In this document: positions 29,158 to 63,380 of the stretch, in pieces
Numbering within the stretch: position 1 is the stretch's first letter
Layout: each line of letters opens with the position of its first letter
From: Powellomyces hirtus
Taxonomy: Eukaryota > Chytridiomycota > Chytridiomycetes > Spizellomycetales > Powellomycetaceae
Direction: 5' to 3'
NCBI GenBank assembly: GCA_025526995.1
Contig: JAHLKG010000005.1
Span: forward strand, 434,001-498,000
DNA length: 64,000 nucleotides
The notes under the pieces: generated by a model
What the model was told of the DNA's origin: nothing
The model's database searches: none
What the model saw: only the letters and a program-made list of their open reading frames with translations
Translations under genes and position numbers: made by a program

Positions 29158-32100
29158 ATGACGATACGGTCGCCATCAACAGACTCTGGCGGAACTGGAA
29201 CCTATGTGTATCTGGCTGATGGCGGCGAAATGGGGCGGCGGATGAAAGAATTTGACTGGTCGAAAACCTCGGTATAGCCTGTCAATGTTCGGCAATGTTT
29301 GCTGCAGTCTTTCGGAGAATCTGACTAAACGACCTTGACTGGTTTGCGGCTATTTGGTTTATATAGGTTGGTCCTCGGGAAAACTGGCCGCCTGCGTTGT
29401 CCACAACAGTCAACATGCTTTTGACCACAAGCTTTTCGTGCGGGCTGTTCTGGGGCCCCGACAGGTTGCTTTTCTATAATGACGGCTATTCGCAAATCCT
29501 TGGGCCACTACACCCAGAAGCTTTGGGACGGTCTGCACCTTTGGTGTGGGGGGAGGTCATCTGGCCAATGATTGAGGGAGATGTTCAACACGCTTTCGAT
29601 GGAATGGCTGCGAGCCAGCAAGGAAAACAATTTTTCTTCGCACGGCCAACTTACTTGATGGAGGCGTACTATCTATTTACGATATCTCCAGTACTGCTCA
29701 ACGATGAGGGGCACATTGAAGGTTGCTTGGTTTTGGCTATGGACGAAACTGCTCGCCTGCTTCATGAGCGACGGGAAGTCTGCTTGAGAAATCTGGGAGC
29801 GCGAGCTGGGAACATCTTGCCAATCAAAGGGGTATGGCCGCATCATCACAAATTCTGGTGTATTGTAGTATTGGGTTTCCGAGATATTCATTGATTTTTT
29901 GTGGTAGACTTGTGTAGCGGCAAGCGAAACATTCTCGCAAGCTGGGGCCGACATTCCATTTTCGCTGATGTATCTCATTGAAGGGCACAATGACCACAAG
30001 CACTGCGTCCTCGCATCGACCTCCGGCATCGACGAAAACCATCCCAAGGTCCCACTCAGCATCCCCATAAAGAGTGGCACGCCTACAGTCTGGGCAGTCG
30101 ATGAGGTTCTTCGAACGGGAGATGTCGTCGAGATATTTGACCTGATCAGTTGGAATCTTCCGGGTGGTGTATGGCCAGAAAACACAACTGAAGCTGTTGT
30201 TATACCCGTTTTCGGGATGAGGCAAGACATTATTGGTGTTTTGGTTTTGGGGATCAGCGCGAGGCGAAAGTTGGATCCGGCATACCGCAATTTCCACACG
30301 CTGGTCGGAAGGCAACTGTCGAGCAACTTGTCCATAGCACAGAGCGCCGAGGAAGAAAGATTCAAACGCGAAGAAATGGCCAAACTCGACCGGGCGAAAA
30401 CAACGTTCTTCAGGTATGTCAACTCAATAGGGATTCTCCATATAACTGGATGTCCACCTGACCTCATCATACCTATCATCAGTTCGGTGTCGCACGAATT
30501 GAGAACGCCATTGACGCTCATATTAGGTCCTATTGAACATCTTCTGCGAGAGAATGAGATTTCACAATCAGTGCGCGATGAACTGTCCGTGGTGAATCGA
30601 AATGCTCTACGCCTGTTGAAACTAGTGACCAACTTGCTGGACTTTTCCAGGGTAGGTATGTATGTGGCTTATTGAGGATGGAAGGATAGCGTCATATGGT
30701 TTTGCTAAACGGGTGCCCATCACAAACCTCTAATTTTGCAGAGGCTGGACGCATGCAGGCCATGTATCGACCTACGGATCTGGGCTTGATGGTGCAGGAT
30801 CTCTGTGCTGTATTTCGAAGTGCTATTCAGCGGGCAAACCTTGAACTCGTCGTGGACATCAAACCATCCCGCGAACGGGTCTACGTTGATGCGGACATGA
30901 TTGAGAAGATCATTTACAACCTGCTGAGCAATGCCCTCAAATGTACTTTTGAAGGGCGTATCTGCGTGCACTTTGAGATTGTGGACCAGAGCGCGAAGAT
31001 TCTCGTCAGCGACACGGGAGTGGGAATCCCAGAATCACAACTGAGCCATGTGTTCGAGCGGTTTCACCGGGTGGAGCAAGTATATAAGCGAAGTACCGAA
31101 GGAACGGGAATAGGGTTGGCTTTGACTATGGAGCTCGTCAAGCTTCATGGTGGTACCGTCAGGGTCGAGTCAACGCTCGTCCAGGGGTCCACCTTCACTG
31201 TAGAGATCCCGCTCGGGCGCGCCCACCTGCCTGACGATCGGATTGAGGAAAGTAGCGTCAACAACCGCGCGACGGGTAGCTTGGACCTCCAATTTCTCGA
31301 AGAACCTAAAGGCTGGCTACCAAACGGCGAAAAAGACACCTCGCCGCCGGCATTGACCATGCCAGCCAGCGATGTAGGGCGGAATGCCCCAAAACCCCAG
31401 GCTTGGTCTTCCATTGGGGCGGTGGATACCGCGGCGCCGCAGTCCTACATTCTAGTTTGTGATGACAATGCCGACCTGCTTTCCTTCATACAGTCCCTCC
31501 TCAGCCCTCACTGGCGCTGCAAAACCGCCAGGGATGGTCAGGAGGCACTGGAAATGTGCAAACGCCATCCGCCAGGTGGGCTCAGAAGAACGCTGATCTT
31601 AATTCCAAATCTCACACCGATGTACCCTAATCCCCGTTCTTTTTTCTCTTGCAAGGTTTGATTGTCAGCGATGTTTCCATGCCGGTATTGGACGGATTTG
31701 GTCTAATTTCCCGCATTAGAGCCATTGAGAGTCTGAAACTGACCCCGATCATCTTACTGAGCGCGCGTGCCGGTGAGGAAGCTCGCGTGGAGGGCCTCGA
31801 GCGCGGCGCAGATGATTACCTATCGAAACCGTTTGGAGCGAGAGAGCTCATTGCCCGGACCAGAATCCACCTCGAACTTGGAAGATTGCGGCGCGAGTTG
31901 GCACACATGGGCAGACTCTCACCGGTTGGTATCTACAGGAGCAATCGCGAGGGAGTCGTGCTGTACAGGTCGCAACGTATGTGCGAGATTAGCGGAGGAC
32001 AAGCAGATGATGCTGGGATGGCCTGCGTGCACCCGGACGATATGGCAATGGTGAAACGCGTTTGGGAAGAAAGTCTTGCCTCGGGACAATCGGGGAAGGC

Positions 32101-33795
32101 AGAATTTCGCTTTCTGAGACCTGACGGATCGGTCATCTGGTGTATATCACAATGGATTCCAGAGACTGATGAAGACGGGGTCGTTATCGGGTTCGTGGGC
32201 GCCACAACCGACATAACGGAGCGCGTAGAGCTGCAAGCGAAACAACTGGCCGAAGCGGAAGAGAACCGAAAGTCGCAGGAGATGTTCATCGATATGATTT
32301 CGCACGAAATCCGGAATCCGCTTTCGGGCGTTTTGTAAGAACGCACGGCAGTGATGGGGGTGCCGAGCTCATGTACTCCATGTTAACGCTTATAATTTGG
32401 TAGGGGCAACGTCGACCTCCTTCGCGCATCTATCTCGGCGCGAAAAGCATTTGCTGAAAAACTCGCTTCTGATACATCGAACAAATACTGGGAGTCCATC
32501 CTCAAGCACGCTTACAAGCAAATCGCGGTGGATGAAGAAAGTTTGGACGCCATTGAGAGCTGTGCACAGCATCAACGAGTCATCACCGATGACGTGCTCA
32601 ATCTTAGCAAGCTCAAGAGTGGAACATTTGTTAGGGCGAGAGAACCGTTTCAGCCCGTGAAATGCGTTAAGGCGGCGATCAACATGTTCAAAGCGCAAAT
32701 GCAGCAAAAGCTTATCGACTTTAGCTTGAGTGTGCAGTGGGAGGACGAGAAAGTTTATGGAGATCCGGAACGATTGAACCAAGTACTCATAAATTTACTG
32801 GGTAACGCAGTGAAGTTTACTGAGAAGCGGGATGTGCGGAGGATCGATGTCACTGTGAAACCGGTCCCCGGAGATGGCCATTTCACCAATCTCTGCATTG
32901 CGGTGTCGGACACGGGAATTGGGATGTCTGCAGAAGCGCAGAGCAAACTTTTTGAAAGGTTCTCACAGGCCACTATCCGGACGCATCGCGAATATGGCGG
33001 GACCGGCTTGGGTCTGCACATCTCGAAGCAGATGGTCCATGTCATGGGCGGAGACATCACAGTGGAATCCGAGCTTGGCAAAGGCACAACCTTCTCCGTC
33101 TTCATACCCGTCATTCGCGACACGACCGCCGTTAAAGAAGTTGAAACAGCACGGAAACCTGACGCAGATCGGCCATTGATTCCTGTGAAGACGAGCGAAC
33201 CGATCTTGAAGAACGTGAACAGTCGGAAGGTAGATGGGACCGGAATATCAGTGCTGATTGTTGAAGACAACCGAATCAATCAGCGAGTGTTGAAGCGGCA
33301 GCTGGATCGTGTGGGCTTTACAACCTTGTTGGCAGATAACGGTCAAGAAGCCCTGGATATTTTCAAAGGAGGAAACAAAATAGATATTGTTCTCATGGAT
33401 ATTGAGGTATTTGCTGATATGTGCTTTGCAAGTCGGTTGAACGCCCCCGCATTAAATTGAAATGCAGATGCCGGTGATGGGAGGCCTTGAATCAACACGG
33501 AAAATGCGCAATTATGAATCCAATCTTCGGGATTCTCAATCATTACTATCACCGCCGTCTCTCATGCCCATAATAGGTAACTCGGAACTCGGCCTGGTTT
33601 ATTACATCAAGCGCTTACACGTGTGTCATTCCAGGATTGAGCGGCAACGCCCGCAGCGAGCATCGAGAACAAGCCATTGAGGCTGGGATGAATGAATACC
33701 TCGTCAAACCATACAGCGCAGACGTACTGACGAATCTGATCGTCGAATGGGTCAACAAAACAACCAGAAAGCGTTCCCACGATGAGACTCTTTAG
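29158..33795 (+). CDS. Dual hybrid histidine kinase (PAS-GAF-HK-REC-PAS-HK-REC)
   Basis: Nine exons (29158-29271, 29367-29831, 29908-30413, 30483-30651, 30744-31575, 31656-32334, 32404-33406, 33468-33576, 33635-33795) keep frame and give about 1345 residues. Order: a PAS-like sensor (FSCGLFWGPDRLLFYNDGY), a GAF-like region (CVAASETFSQAGADIPFSLM), HisKA 1 with SVSHELRTP, an ATPase with NLLSNALKC, DTGVGIP and GTGIGLAL, receiver 1 (CDDNADL, Asp in VSDVSMP, Lys in LSKPF), a PAS/PAC module, HisKA 2 with DMISHEIRNP, ATPase 2 with NLLGNAVKFTE, DTGIGMS and GTGLGLHI, and receiver 2 (VEDNRIN, Asp in LMDIEMP, Lys in LVKPY). Every catalytic and phospho-accepting residue I can check is present in both units. 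No membrane segment is seen, so it is probably a cytosolic stress or redox/light-type sensor; the signal is unknown. The start is uncertain: an in-frame ATG at 29044 would add 38 residues. Confidence 0.9.
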
Positions 33796-56700: not shown

Positions 56701-57195
56701 AAGTTGCCTTGTTGTTTCCCTTCCTTGTCGTAGATCAGCACTTTTTCAACAGTCTGTTTCATATATAGAGCAAGATATTTCGACTTCCGAACAATATCCA
56801 TAGATAGGTTTTAATACCGTAGACATTCAAATATAAGTGGCTTCTATCGTCCTTGCGCAAATACTCCCTCAACTATCACTAATTCAAGAGTGGGGCATAT
56901 CGATATCAAGTTGAATATGATAGTTACACGACGACGCGACCGGGCTGCTCGATCCGCGTTTTCAAGTTGCCCTGCGTCTTCAAGATCTCGCACTCACATA
57001 AGGAACGCAAGAAGGACGTGGAACTCTCACCAACCCCGGCCAGGTTGTCATGTCGATGCAGCGGCGTTCTTCTCGTCGGAAGGAAACGGCTGGGAACACG
57101 TATGAGTAGGTTCTTATTCTCCGCATTCACTCAAGTCCGCTTATTCCTAACGCTCTTCTCTTCAGAAAAGGTGAGCTGCTGCTTTCGAGCTGATA
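56701..57195. other. Intergenic region and uncertain 5' part of the UBZ4 gene
   Basis: About 500 bp between tandem genes. From about 56895 an open plus-strand frame without ATG (KERKKDVELSPTPARLSCRC) runs through an intron-like 57102-57171 into the next gene in frame. It may be 5' coding sequence reached from an upstream start such as 56917 in another frame. Confidence 0.35.
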
Positions 57196-60048
57196 TGCGA
57201 GCAGCCTTGGGCGCTGAGCGTTTACGTTTGCGTGAAACTTACGTCTTTCGCACGGCAGACACGGAGGATGAACTCACCCGCGCCATTTCTGAAAGTCGTC
57301 GGGAGCAGGAGATATCACAACGAAGAATCTTGAATCAGATAACTTCGTCCAACACGAAGCGGACGGAGCCTGACCGCACAAACAGGAGACAGCAGTCCGT
57401 AGAAATTGATCTGACGAATTCTCTGGATTCTCAGGACTACCTCGCCGAGTTCTCAACGGACCCATCTCGCATCAGCAGTCCGCTTGACGTGTTTAGCAGC
57501 TCTGGGAAATATGCTGATAGCAAGTCCAGAAGCGGCGATTTGAGAACCTCATCTGAAGATAATGCCTTTGACTCCAAGAAGCACCCGGGCATGCTCAAGG
57601 AGGGAAGGATGAATGAGGATAGGATTCGGTCAAGGAGTCACCACGGAAAGATTAATCCAAGGAATGGCCGTACGACTGACATGTACGAGGACATGGGCCT
57701 CATGACTCGGCCTAAGCCTACAACACCAGTCGGTAGCCAGATATTTGATGTCACTATGCACGAAGTTGAGAATGTCTCATATAGCATGGGACCAGAAACT
57801 CCGACCAGATTCAAACAGCACGAAGTCGATCATGCATGCGAATCCGCTGGCGCCATCCATGACCGATCACGGTGGATGTCAGATGCAGAGAGGCAGCGTC
57901 GACATGTAGCTTTCGTGAAAGCTCTGATGCAAAAGTATCATGCTTTGCCTGCCTCAAAGCCTGCGAAACGAACTCCATCTACAAACACCTCGCGATCTCA
58001 AACTAGACCTCGGATGAAGCGCACGCCCAAGACTCATGCGATAGGTCATGACGTGCGGTTTCCAGAATTGGAGGACGAGGAGCATGATTACAGCGTGCCA
58101 GTTTCTGGAGGCATTTCGCGCTCAATGTCACCGCTAACTGAGGAGCTCAATGCCATGGTTGACAGCCCTGCAAGTACTTCACATAAAGCTGATGAATCAT
58201 CGAGTTTAAGAAAGATGACATTAAGCTCGGTACTCAAACAGTCGGCCACGCCAGTGTCAATAGTGAAAGACCAATCATGTTCACGAAACCCACAATACCA
58301 TAGTCTGGGAGAAAATAAAGACACATCGCAAGTTATGGAAGATTGCGGTGACGACCGTGATGCCAAACGACGCACGTCCCCGGAAGTTCCCATGCTTCCT
58401 GAAATTTCGGAGGTGCCTGAGACCGTCCGGAAGAGAAAGAAGACGGGCGAGCATGCAAATGGCCCCCTGCCGAAAATCTCACCTGCTTCTGTTGAACGGG
58501 CCACTATGAGGTCAAATTTTTCTGATGTGGAATCGGAAGACGAGCTCGTATCTGCGTGCGCAGACACGAGGATGGGGACTCCCAAGCCTATCCGGAGACC
58601 TTTTGTGGATTCCGGCAGTGATGACGAGGACGAGACGGATCGATTACTCATGTCAACGCCGGGTTTCGGCTCAGGCCGGAAGGCTGGGCATGCAGCACGA
58701 GGATTGTCCAATGTTGTAGGATTGAGATCCGCGACAACTACGCCTTCGACGAAATGTAAACCAAGAAGTACGCCCACGAGTGGAAGATTGCCCTCCCCAG
58801 CTTTTCAAAGCGATCAAACCCCAATCTCAGCACAAGAAAGACAACCCGCATCGAGAGCTAGCACTCCGTCACATAAGAGGAAGCGTCCAGAAAGCGATGG
58901 TCTATCATTTACGCCTGTCATGGAATCAGCTAAACATGAGGTATGTTAAATGTTCGCTTGGCGAAGCCTTGACAATCTGGCAAACCTATGAACCTCTTTG
59001 GAAGATTCCATGCCCGATGTGCAATAGGAACTTTGGGCCAGATACGATTGAAGTGCATGCGGCCACCTGCGAAGGCTTGGACGACGACGAAGTTTGCGAA
59101 GAACCCGCGTCTCGTTCCAGCACAGAAGTATTGACGACAAAAACAAAGAAATTGGAGGAGCTTGCTAAGAAGCGTCGGAAAAAATCGCGAGGGATAGTGG
59201 ATGACATTGAAGAAGATACCAGCGATGAACGTCCTCAATTCCCGGATCCGGATAGGATGCCTGGTCCTTCAATCTTGTCGTATCTCACGAAGTCTAGTGG
59301 TGAGTCAAAGTATCAGGGTTTCGCAGTTACAGTATGTCCCACGCTGAAGACTACGGACAATCTTTAGAAAAAACGCCTCCCAGAGTGACTCAAAAGGCAC
59401 GAAGTGAAGGGGCAGCGTATGAGGAATGCTCTCATTGTGGTGCATGGATCACTCGATGCCAAACCATGCAACATCAGCAAGAATGTCAATCAAGTAGAGA
59501 TGCAGGAGCAAACCAAGATGACATTGGGAGGAGAGACAATATGGGATTGGAAGCCGCACAATCGAAACTCCCAAAGCTACAATCGACTACCTCCAGCGGA
59601 GTCAGCGATTGCCCATTTGCATTGGAGCGCGAAGAGCCTCGCCACCGAGATGATCCAGGTGATTATGAGCACGACGATGTGTTCGCTCAAGCCACTCAGA
59701 TGGATTACGAAGACATGGAATCGACGGAAAATTACTACGATGAGCAGCTCTCCCCACTCGAAGGATTTGAGGACATGGAGAATGACGATGGAGATGTGGA
59801 CTGGTTCAACGTGCCGGCCACAAGCACGAAAAAACCGAGGGCAACGCCGAAGAGCACTCGAGGGAGAGGTGGAGGTGGCAATAGCAACTCCTGGCGAGGA
59901 AAAGGTCGTGGGCGCTCAAATTGGAGAGGAAAAGCTGGCAAAAGGAACTCGGCTGCTGGTAGAAGCATGCAGTCGCGTGGGTAAGTTTTTCAAGAGAATT
60001 TTGCTATTCATTATGGTTCATGGCAGACATCGGAGGAAGCACTGGTGA
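57196..60048 (+). CDS. Nuclear-type protein with two UBZ4-like zinc fingers and RG-rich tail
   Basis: Four exons from a conservative ATG at 57196, about 880 residues. The real start may lie further 5'. The N-terminal 580 residues are mostly disordered and charged, with a helical segment near RAISESRREQEISQRRILNQ and an RHVAFVKALMQKYHAL block. Exon 2 carries a first zinc finger, CPMCNRNFGPDTIEVHAATC. Exon 3 carries a second, CSHCGAWITRCQTMQHQQEC. Both fit C-x2-C-x11-H-x3-C, the RAD18-type UBZ4 ubiquitin-binding pattern. An acidic patch and a Gly/Arg-rich C-tail (RGRGGGGNSNSWRGKGRGRS) end the protein. UBZ4 proteins act in ubiquitin-directed DNA repair, and SLX4 also has tandem UBZ4 fingers, but no SLX4 BTB, SAP or SLX1-binding domain is seen, so I leave it unnamed. 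Confidence 0.75.
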
Positions 60049-60684
60049 GCAAACACGGCGTTGACCACCGCCTCTGCTCCACGATTCCCACTTCTGCAGC
60101 TGATCATACCAAATCTATCTTCTCGCGAAAAGGCGGGGAGGGGCCTCCTCCAATGCCGAGCGATCCACGCCTGCTGCAGAACCTCGCAGAAACTATTACG
60201 CGGATAACCCAGGCTTCACTGCTCACGAAGCGGGAATGCGATGGGAGGGCTTCAATGGTGTCTCCTTCTGAAACTGCCGTATAATGTAGCTTGTAGACTG
60301 TAGCACGCTTCTGCACCTTTGTCAGCGTTTACAATCAACGCTCAAAATCTGGATATAGATTTGCATCATCACAAAGGTCCTAACATGCCAATTCACTGAA
60401 CAGCTGCAGTTCAAAACCCCACAAACAGATAACAGATTATTTTAATTAAAGTAATTTGATTTCGCGCTCTCTACCTCCGTTGCTGAAGATTTTTTATCTA
60501 ACTATGTGACCGGCCTCAGGTCCTCGAGTCTATCTTGAGCAGATATGAGGACGTCGAGTGCACAAAGATGTGCTATTTACGCTCCGGCCTTCGACTCTGA
60601 TGGCCTGTCGGGGTTGAACTTGTCGCAAGGCCTAAATACATTGCACTGGTGTTTCGATGCTACGTGCTTGCCCAGGGTGTTGAA
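60049..60684. other. Convergent 3' intergenic region
   Basis: About 640 bp between convergent genes. An AT-rich TTATTTTAATTAAAG patch lies near 60437-60451. No gene, repeat or RNA signature was recognised. Confidence 0.4.
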
Positions 60685-63380
60685 TCATGATCCCGCTCGC
60701 GGTTCGCATTCCAAGGACATCTCTTGCAGTTTTCCAATTCCCAGTTCCACAACTGGATTTTGGATGTACTCTTGAAAGTCGGGATCAAAACTCCACCATT
60801 TGTATTCCGATTTCGCAAAGGCTGTTATCCCTTTGACGCAGTCCGTTATTAGCCGGAGCTTCTCAAAGTTGATTTCGTTGTTGGCGAGCCGGGATTCGTT
60901 ACCATCGTTCATGAATGTAAGATCCTTGATGAAAATAGCTTTAAATGTCCGCAAGATTGAAGTAAAAGACGTCAGTCATGGTACATCAACCACCGGGGCT
61001 CCTCACAGATAGGAAATCCTGAAATAGAAATACATACGCAGAAAAGGAACCAGTGGCGGAACGGAATCGTCCAGCTTATCCCGATAAGTCTTGAAATTTT
61101 TGGAGACGTCAGTAAATTTCTCCAGCTCCGCCAAGACTTTCTTCTTGTTATCCGAAAGGCCCTTGAATCGTAGAAAGACGCAATTATTGTGTGTACGTTC
61201 CTTCTACACCGTAGTCCACCGTACCTCCCATGTTTTCTTCAGCCTTTGTACCGGACTCAGGCTGAGCCCAAACATAATGGCAAAGACACTGAAGAAATTT
61301 TGAGCCTCGAGACATTCCTTTATGAAAGACAAGGCAAAACAACGTGAGCGGTACTCCTTCGACCACAAGCCAATTGACCTGTCATACGTACTTTCGCCGT
61401 CACTATGAATGTCCTGAGCACATTTATTCTCGCTTTCAGATCCCGCTTGGCCACGATCTCAGTAGCCACCCAATACGACTCTTTATCGAATCTCGATATG
61501 AAGTAGCTGAGCGTCGGTGACGTCTTTTTCGACACCAGATTTACAAACTCTATCGAATCGATATGTCGAAAAAGCATTGAATCGTACAGACAGAGCTGCT
61601 GCGCGAGCTTATCCGGCGAGACGTCCGGCGTTAGTAGTGACTCGTTCACGGTCCGTATGATGTTTGTAGCTGGATCCATAATGTCTCTCATATGTGCGCT
61701 GCGGATGGCGTGCTTTGTGCTCTGCAGATCAAAAACGGTGATGAACATTCAAGGACTCCATTGTGATGCAAGATCTAGGCAAGACGTTTATCCACCTGCT
61801 TTTCAACTGCTGCCTTTAGTTGATTGGCATGGCTCGTCCCCAAAGCTTCTCTTATCTTTCCGATTAGATCCATTAGTGAAGTCTTTAGCTTCATATTTGA
61901 TGCGAAATCATGCCATTGTTCGTTGATCCAGGCCGTGAGCACTGCTGCGACGCTATTTGACGAGCTTTGTTGGAGGCACCCTGTTGTATTAAACATGTTC
62001 AATGTTCAGTAACTTACCCATGCTGAGCTGCTACGGCGTTCTCAGTAGAGACATACAAATTGGATGCCGATGTATGCGCTTCGTCAGAATGGCCGCGAAA
62101 CTGGTCTTGGAGCCAGCTGAGTAGCTCCTCCGGCTTCATGAAAGTTCGATACGTCAGGAGAAACTCGCTCATATACGACGGCCCAGCTAAAAAGAAAGGG
62201 ACGACGGTTAAGATCATTCCCCTCCGGTCTGAACAAGTGCTAAACCTACATTGCTTTGGCTGTATTAGCGCTTGCAGAAGCTGCTCTCGCGACCCACTGT
62301 ATATTTGTCCTGTGCCTCCTAGCATATTTGCAGCCATCTTTGCCGATGAGATAGTGCTTGCGGAACCCAAACCTCTGGTGGGACTCAACTGCACTGCCTG
62401 CAGATACTTTCCGAAAATGTTTTGAACCATACTAGGCGTGACGGGTTTTATGAGGATATCATTCATGCCGGCAGCGAGGTATGACGTTCTCAGGTCCGGG
62501 CTATCCACGCTGGTGACAGCAATAATGGGTACAAGCCGGTTTTCGCCCAAGATGCGAGCGCCAATAGCTGCTGGAGACATGGAACCCTCTTCAACCGAAA
62601 ATGCAGGAGGAATGTTGCCGCGAGACGTCGGCCGAGATATACTGGCGGCACGACGACGACGACTGAGAGTCCCTCCTGCTGAGAACGCCGAAGGGCTTAG
62701 ATCTGACCCAGTTTTCGACTCAGTCAGTTCTTTTATCTCATTCATTAGGTTGGATATTGGCAGGCCCACATGCTCCCCGCGGATGAGTTTTGTAGCTGCC
62801 CATCCACTCAGGACTGGCATCTCTGCGAACCGACAGATTCTGAGTCAATTGATATGTTTTCCGCACAACTCACGTAAGGTCGTACCGATATCCATCATGA
62901 TCAAGTCATATCTAAAGGCACGACAAACAAATGTCACTATCAAGTCTGGAGTTGAGGGAAATGACATGAAGCTCACCGGCGGAATTCCAACGCTTGAAGA
63001 AGTTTGAGACCATTGTCGAATATATCATCTGATTCGGTGTAAACTCAGTATCACATGCTCCCTCAGAAGTGCTGAGTTGCAATTACCATTTGAAACGTTG
63101 ACCCGGAAGAACTTTTTTAAAGATTTCTAAAGAACGGGTGGGTATTAGAGCAACACCGACCAGCAGCATTTGTGCATCATACGTTTCAAATTAATTACCG
63201 TGAGGATTTTCTGAACGACCAGGTTATCATCCTTGAACAGCCCCAAATCGACGCATTAGGATAATTCTTGTCTGAGATATCTATACAATTGAACCAACTC
63301 ACCACAATTGCCACTCTGAATTCTCCATAGTCCCCTCCCACAATTTCTACACCCTTCTCTAATGGCTTTCGTAAAAACAT
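60685..63380 (-). CDS. Response-regulator receiver domain fused to RasGEF
   Basis: About eleven exons from the ATG at 63380 to the TGA at 60685-60687. The first exons splice in frame to a complete receiver domain: FRVAIVDDNLVVQKILT (acidic pair), FDNGLKLLQALEFRRYD, MMDIEMPVLSGW (phospho-Asp codon at 62890-62892), LVPIIAVTSVDS (Thr) and AAGMNDILIKPVTP (Lys). A polar insert of about 73 residues separates the third helix from beta-4. Next comes a RasGEF N-terminal (REM) module (SREQLLQALIQPKQ, YMSEFLLTYRTFMKPEELLS). The CDC25-type catalytic domain follows: SPDKLAQQLCLYDSMLFRHI, IDSIEFVNL, LEAQNFFSVFAIMFGLSLSP, VQRLKKTWE, KDLTFMNDGNES and NEINFEKLRLI. The REC fold should be switched by a histidine phosphorelay and the GEF should load GTP on Ras-type GTPases. 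Coupling of the two is inferred from the fusion. Junctions in the GEF part near 61.0-61.4 kb are approximate. Confidence 0.88.

Follow-up and report, generated by a model that had tools for sequence, protein, structure and literature searches.

A receiver domain fused to a CDC25-type exchange factor in Powellomyces hirtus and related chytrids, with Rap1 as its likely client

A receiver (REC) domain that directly gates an enzyme in its own chain has a precedent in RegA from Dictyostelium, in which a REC is joined to a cAMP phosphodiesterase and fed by RdeA, and in which phosphorylation is activating (PMC11988041, in the portion available). RegA and the protein analysed in this work, here named REC-GEF, share a eukaryotic REC located N-terminal to a signalling enzyme, and RegA is phosphorylated through an Hpt (PMC11988041, same portion). 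However, the output of RegA is the hydrolysis of cAMP, whereas the output predicted for REC-GEF is nucleotide exchange on a GTPase, and a Pfam search found no class I phosphodiesterase domain in REC-GEF.

A second comparable system has been described in Myxococcus, where the response regulator RomR, together with RomX, is tied to GEF activity on the Ras-like GTPase MglA (PMC7332107, in the portion available). These are two separate bacterial proteins, a clear difference from REC-GEF. Neither of them is known to hold a CDC25 domain.

With respect to the exchange factor itself, the closest animal groups in the tree of catalytic domains are Epac (RapGEF3-4) and PDZ-GEF (RapGEF2-6), which combine a REM and a CDC25 domain as REC-GEF does. 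In both groups a regulatory module precedes the REM, and in REC-GEF it is a REC that holds this place. No cyclic-nucleotide, DEP, PDZ or RA domain was matched in REC-GEF (Pfam, E 0.001). The protein has therefore not been classed as an Epac proper, because the cyclic-nucleotide-binding domain is not matched, and assignment to PDZ-GEF proper was rejected on the absence of the PDZ and RA domains at the same threshold.

Among fungi, most known response regulators belong to the Rim15, Skn7 and Ssk1 groups, with Srr1 restricted to a few yeasts, and the regulators named in the main text of the census of Bourret et al. (2021, PMC8510515, as far as available) include no GEF. According to the same source, the α3-β4 loop of the Ssk1 REC is disordered and spans 38 ± 16 residues, and 31% of the RECs of fungal hybrid histidine kinases (HHKs) present inserts of at least 10 residues in the α2-β3 and/or the α3-β4 loop (PMC8510515). 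REC-GEF and Ssk1 are alike in being fungal and in having a REC with an α3-β4 loop that is disordered, by prediction in the case of REC-GEF, but Ssk1 works by binding to the kinase Ssk2 (PMC8510515, same portion), while REC-GEF carries its GEF in the chain.

The REC-GEF gene and its product

The gene lies in a window of 64,000 nucleotides of the Powellomyces hirtus genome (assembly GCA_025526995.1, contig JAHLKG010000005.1, positions 434,001 to 498,000 of the forward strand); coordinates given without a contig label refer to this window. It runs on the minus strand from 63380 to 60685 and comprises 12 exons, whose spliced translation yields 646 amino acids plus a stop, with the ATG at 63380 and a TGA that ends at 60685. 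The 11 introns are all of the GT-AG type, measure 53-99 nt and have consistent phases, and both the start and the end of the model match those of the public records P0001 and P0005. The features of the gene are the following:

60685..63380, minus strand: complete REC-RasGEF_N-RasGEF gene (spliced translation; ends as in P0001 and P0005)
62386..63317, minus strand: REC domain with its insert, residues 22-222, encoded by exons 1-6 (Pfam Response_reg and residue map)
63226..63231, minus strand: metal-binding acidic pair D27 D28 (8/8 sequences reaching that part)
62890..62892, minus strand: phospho-acceptor Asp, D75 (11/11 sequences)
62557..62775, minus strand: REC insert, some 70 residues long, in the α3-β4 loop, predicted to be disordered (alignment; pLDDT below 50 at 97-168 in the P0001 model)
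62512..62514, minus strand: switch residue T180 (Thr in 10/11 sequences, Ser in 1/11)
62446..62448, minus strand: catalytic Lys, K202 (11/11 sequences)
62250..62822, minus strand: exon 6, residues 77-268 (second half of the REC, linker and start of RasGEF_N, unspliced)
61883..62307, minus strand: RasGEF_N (REM), residues 249-351, exons 6-8 (PF00618, 59 bits)
60688..61649, minus strand: CDC25-type catalytic domain, residues 405-646 (PF00617, 186 bits; Pfam part 60853-61607)
60922..61047, minus strand: PFLPIFIKD segment, as in Epac and PDZ-GEF (Pro at a position that is Gly in the rows of Cdc25 and RasGRF)

Three Pfam families are matched above their curated cut-offs, namely Response_reg (62 bits, residues 23-99), RasGEF_N (59 bits, residues 249-351) and RasGEF (186 bits, residues 419-591). 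No other family is matched at E 0.001, and at this threshold histidine kinase and ATPase domains are absent from the chain. The Response_reg match looks shortened owing to an insert of about 70 residues that separates α3 from β4; when the insert is removed, the REC covers positions 1-105 of the 111 of the model and reaches 76.6 bits.

The unity of the chain relies on exon 6, which contains the REC from just past the phospho-acceptor (β4 to α5), then the linker and the N-terminal 20 residues of RasGEF_N. The stop-to-stop frame 62014-62844 stays open across this exon, intron 6 and exon 7. Since exon 6 spans REC and RasGEF_N with no splice site between them, the exon structure speaks against a GEF half that is a gene of its own, and if the whole GEF part had its own promoter and ATG, these would have to interrupt an exon. 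A chance fusion is excluded because ten protein records from five other genera, some of them incomplete as gene models, present the same architecture. That REC and GEF represent two genes, brought together by chance splicing or by an assembly or annotation artefact, is thus extremely improbable and was rejected: two public models (P0003 and P0008) do begin inside the REC, but a single exon holds the second half of the REC and the start of RasGEF_N, and the fusion recurs in the assemblies of those five genera. As far as can be read from the sequence, the fusion of REC, RasGEF_N and CDC25 domain in one chain is real, and internal promoters or truncated isoforms of the gene may exist. The initial annotation had read the three domains into one chain at 60685..63380, and this reading holds, as the exons splice into one open frame of 646 codons and a separate start for the RasGEF part fits poorly with exon 6. 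It had also named a DDN pair, the Asp in MMDIEMP, the Thr in IAVTS and the Lys in LIKP as the residues for phosphorylation, all of which are present (D27 D28 N29, D75, T180 and K202).

These residues are maintained throughout the six genera, with the acidic pair found in 8/8 sequences, and the phospho-acceptor Asp, the Thr/Ser and the Lys each in 11/11. Every one of the eight sequences that cover all five catalytic residues keeps them, including the most diverged, P0139. Identity between P0139 and the window protein is 54% and 33% in the two parts of the REC core and 52% in the catalytic part, with 11% in the insert and 12% in the linker, and in the two most distant members of the REC-GEFs the identity of insert and linker drops to 11-15%. 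The chemistry of the phospho-acceptor has therefore been kept while the insert drifts. The possibility of a degenerate (pseudo-) receiver was rejected on the conservation of the catalytic REC residues.

The fast-evolving insert holds a basic Ser motif, RRRRAAS (62641-62661), and a basic run followed by Ser occurs in the insert of 11/11 sequences (RRRRAS in P0007, for example). This motif is a possible site for a basophilic kinase and a possible second phospho-input, and the predicted disordered α3-β4 loop in which it is located may act as a second input or as a docking site.

An AF2 model of P0001 obtained from an alignment of REC-GEFs only shows a REC core (pLDDT 73-84) in which the strands and helices to be expected are mostly present, an insert and a linker with pLDDT below 50, a RasGEF_N with pLDDT 73-90 that dips to 50-55 at 301-320, and a catalytic part with 43-78. 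A mixed alignment of RBD and REC proteins produced a poor REC. The mean pLDDT of the two models, 61 and 63, is moderate, with no reliable contacts between the REC and GEF domains, and no REC structure appeared among the 50 Foldseek matches listed for each model.

Relatives, paralogue and source of the REC

Nine public records with both REC and RasGEF (P0001-P0009), eight of them also with RasGEF_N, were retrieved by protein search, and a tenth, P0139, came from a search with the catalytic part. These proteins, which come from Geranomyces (five), Rhizophlyctis (two), Thoreauomyces, Fimicolochytrium and Gaertneriomyces (one each), share 35-71% identity with the window protein in the part that aligns. 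Together with the window they represent six genera of the orders Spizellomycetales and Rhizophlyctidales, the order placement of Geranomyces and Thoreauomyces being presumed. An alignment-based search revealed no further REC-RasGEF among 120 of its 141 matches; P0139 was also missing there, so this search is no proof of absence elsewhere. The search with the catalytic part gave no REC-RasGEF besides the ten among 120 of 186 matches, and the relatives listed in the three protein searches include no public record of the P. hirtus REC-GEF itself.

Six of the ten relatives have imperfect public gene models (P0002, P0003, P0004, P0006, P0007 and P0008). P0002 is devoid of a catalytic exon and P0004 misreads one, P0007 reads through an intron, and P0006 has no RasGEF_N. 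The part of the REC that bears the acidic pair is missing from P0003, P0006 and P0008, the models of P0003 and P0008 starting at a Met just before the phospho-acceptor Asp.

P. hirtus also has a protein with the architecture RBD-RasGEF_N-RasGEF and no REC (P0144), whose locus in this genome, on contig C24, is covered by seven tblastn pieces of 91-100% identity, five of them at 95% or higher. In this protein and in P0136 of Spizellomyces punctatus the RBD is N-terminal to the REM, where REC-GEF has the REC instead, and the catalytic parts are 50-53% identical to that of REC-GEF. Proteins of the RBD type have also been met in Blastocladiella, Allomyces and Neocallimastix, and both forms coexist in P. 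hirtus, Geranomyces variabilis, G. michiganensis, Thoreauomyces humboldtii, Fimicolochytrium jonesii and Rhizophlyctis rosea. For S. punctatus the catalytic-part matches listed (120 of 186) contain no form other than the RBD one, so the fusion may be dispensable or may have been lost there.

In a tree of 55 catalytic domains, from which P0002 and P0004 were left out for their damaged catalytic exon and P0006 for its 93% identity to P0001, the REC-GEFs constitute one clade (8/8 rows, support 100/99), which is nested in the chytrid RBD-GEF family (support 97/89). By these relationships the REC-GEF gene is a paralogue of the widespread chytrid RBD-RasGEF_N-RasGEF protein.

Regarding the origin of the REC, the closest one in the same genome seems to belong to L104, a stand-alone response regulator encoded on the minus strand of the same contig (C5:564700-566600), about 68 kb beyond the REC-GEF gene. 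L104 exhibits all the REC residues and an insert in the α3-β4 loop. Its REC, spliced by hand and with the insert removed, is the best blastp match in its own genome for 8/8 complete REC-GEF RECs (37-44% identity over 123-128 positions, 84-103 bits, versus 56-77 bits for the next gene), a comparison that favours L104 because the other split RECs were compared unspliced. Left unspliced, its first half appears among the five matches listed for 7/8 REC-GEF RECs, with 55-72 bits over 58-60 positions. These scores are about as high as those of the best full-length RECs, and the window REC is the sole query for which this half outscores every other gene. A profile built on the REC-GEF RECs gives 67.9 bits over 60 positions to the first half of L104 and 68.6 bits over 122 positions to the best full-length REC of another gene. 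The REC fragment of the Skn7 from the same genome obtains 42.7 bits over 69 positions, and fragment L085, which looks Ssk1-like by its motif, 31.6 bits over 70 positions. The α3-β4 loop of REC-GEF is predicted to be disordered, as in Ssk1 RECs, but a derivation of its REC from Skn7 or Ssk1 is unsupported, as the fragments reach 42.7 and 31.6 bits versus 67.9 for the stand-alone regulator.

A tree of RECs from 37 loci groups the REC-GEFs with L104 and two long or half-filled rows, with a support of 84/95 that is below the starred level. This tree leaves out four near-copies and the fragments with fewer than 63 model positions or less than 15 bits, draws on a Response_reg search in which 50 of 74 candidates were scored, and includes 29 rows labelled 'HK', a label that is provisional as to kinase domains. 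The simplest history would be that an RBD-GEF gene was duplicated and the N-terminal region of one copy was replaced once by a REC of the type found in the L104 regulator.

The probable phosphorelay and the proposed control of exchange

One Hpt locus was found in the genome, which is Ypd1-like, shows the motif HFLKG and scores 75 bits to a solved fungal HPt and 54 bits to yeast Ypd1. HisKA matches amount to 28, with 26 over the cut-off, some of them being pieces of one gene or near-copies, and Response_reg matches to at least 52 (50 of the 74 candidates scored). An HSF-REC pair at C3:453.6-455.4 kb reads as Skn7. In these profile searches no RasGEF match lies within 20 kb of any Response_reg match listed; the Response_reg search missed the REC of REC-GEF itself, which is split into short exons, so other split RECs beside GEFs could be missed.

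REC-GEF is probably a response regulator with a Rap-type GEF output, to which kinases would signal through the Ypd1-like Hpt and Asp75, with exchange on Rap1 as the result. In the mechanism proposed, hybrid histidine kinases would pass phosphate via this Hpt to Asp75 of the REC, and phosphorylation would alter the packing of the N-terminal REC on the REM and CDC25 domains. The altered packing would open (less likely close) the catalytic site, and the opened GEF would load Rap1 with GTP. This would be the logic of Epac, with the receiver standing where the cAMP-binding module would be. The broader reading, which joins a His-Asp relay that ends on a GEF and a phospho-Asp that gates the loading of Rap1 to a single chytrid origin with replacement of the RBD region by the REC, is given an even chance.

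The sign of the control could also be the opposite, a tentative and rather doubtful alternative in which the phosphorylated REC would keep the GEF off and a stress-induced loss of phosphate would turn it on, just as unphosphorylated Ssk1 activates Ssk2. This is the sense found in yeast Ssk1, whose RECs carry a disordered α3-β4 loop of the same kind as the longer one of REC-GEF (PMC8510515, in the portion available), but such inserts are not unique to Ssk1, as they also occur in the RECs of fungal HHKs (PMC8510515). Moreover, RegA, the nearest fusion of a REC with an enzyme, is activated by phosphorylation (PMC11988041, in the portion available), which speaks against this alternative.

The likely client GTPase and the place of REC-GEF among known regulators

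In the tree of catalytic domains, the chytrid GEF family joins animal Epac and PDZ-GEF with a support of 99/96, Epac and PDZ-GEF meeting on long branches. Trees constrained to unite the chytrid family with Cdc25, RasGRF or the two at once were rejected (p-AU 0.0006, 0.0002 and 0.0015, respectively) and cost 41-55 log units, the groups for these AU tests having been chosen once the tree was known. Among proteins of solved structure, the one that matches best in sequence is Epac2, at 124 bits with the catalytic part only, ahead of Cdc25, RasGRF1 and SOS2 at 98, 97 and 90 bits. The catalytic segment PFLPIFIKD presents the Pro of the Epac and PDZ-GEF rows, where those of Cdc25 and RasGRF have Gly. 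Furthermore, the genome encodes a Rap1-like GTPase, which scores 260 bits to Rap1b versus 165 to KRas over the part assembled, and whose switch II reads DTAGT-EQF. Sequence comparison places the GEF on the Rap-GEF (Epac/PDZ-GEF) side, and its likely client is Rap1 and not Ras.

It is unlikely that the GEF acts on Ras, which would make the relay drive Ras directly. The CDC25 fold is common to Ras GEFs and Rap GEFs, and possible Ras clients are at hand: the motifs of 20 other GTPase loci suggest two of the Ras type, with one each that we take to be Ral-like, Rheb-like and otherwise Ras-like. Foldseek on the predicted models ranked Epac2 first for one and SOS1 first for the other, and did not separate Epac from SOS. 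Ras has nevertheless not been kept as the client because the tree, the AU tests, the ranking of PDB sequences and the catalytic segment favour the Rap-GEF side. The initial annotation had proposed a switch from phosphorelay to Ras; its fusion of REC and GEF stands, while Ras gives way, as the catalytic domain groups with Epac and PDZ-GEF and not with Cdc25 and RasGRF.

Even less likely is a REC that serves as a scaffold or localisation module by binding Ypd1 or a kinase, with a phosphorylation that does not control catalysis. Control by localisation is common among GEFs, which lends this alternative some plausibility, and in Myxococcus RomR together with RomX is both the GEF and the recruiter for MglA (PMC7332107, in the portion available). 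Against it, all five catalytic REC residues are conserved in 8/8 covering sequences, and a scaffold would not need all of them.

Proteins in which a REC is joined to an effector and Rap-GEFs are both known kinds, and what appears to be new in REC-GEF is their fusion. The Rim15, Skn7, Ssk1 and Srr1 regulators act on transcription or on kinases. The literature searches found no description of a REC-RasGEF fusion, in agreement with the initial annotation, which did not know the architecture as described; the table of enzymatic regulators of Bourret et al. (2021) lay outside the coverage of these searches, and an earlier tabulation in that census is possible.

If the proposed mechanism is correct, REC-GEF would connect histidine kinases to a Rap-type GTPase in one step, linking two signalling systems that are usually separate. 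Relatives of Rap guide polarity and adhesion. The system is compact and has been conserved across two orders, and three proteins (Ypd1, REC-GEF and Rap1) would suffice to test it in vitro. The same REM-CDC25 core would accept exchangeable regulatory modules, an RBD or a REC in chytrids and cAMP-binding domains in animals, and REC-GEF would then be the phosphate-controlled counterpart of Epac.

Some other observations concern the surroundings of the gene and the RECs of this genome. The convergent neighbour, at 56883-60284 on the plus strand, contains repeated CxxC...HxxxC-like motifs, and two open frames tested gave no Pfam match. Four REC matches (C25:31325, C3:286930, C8:782113 and C11:541, the last being L083) reside in equal frames of 231 amino acids with near-equal scores; they are far apart, with one near a contig end, and may reflect a mobile or subtelomeric spread. 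Finally, a double-core hybrid histidine kinase of several exons is encoded on the plus strand of the window at 29367-33460, with HisKA, HATPase, REC, a second HATPase and a second REC.
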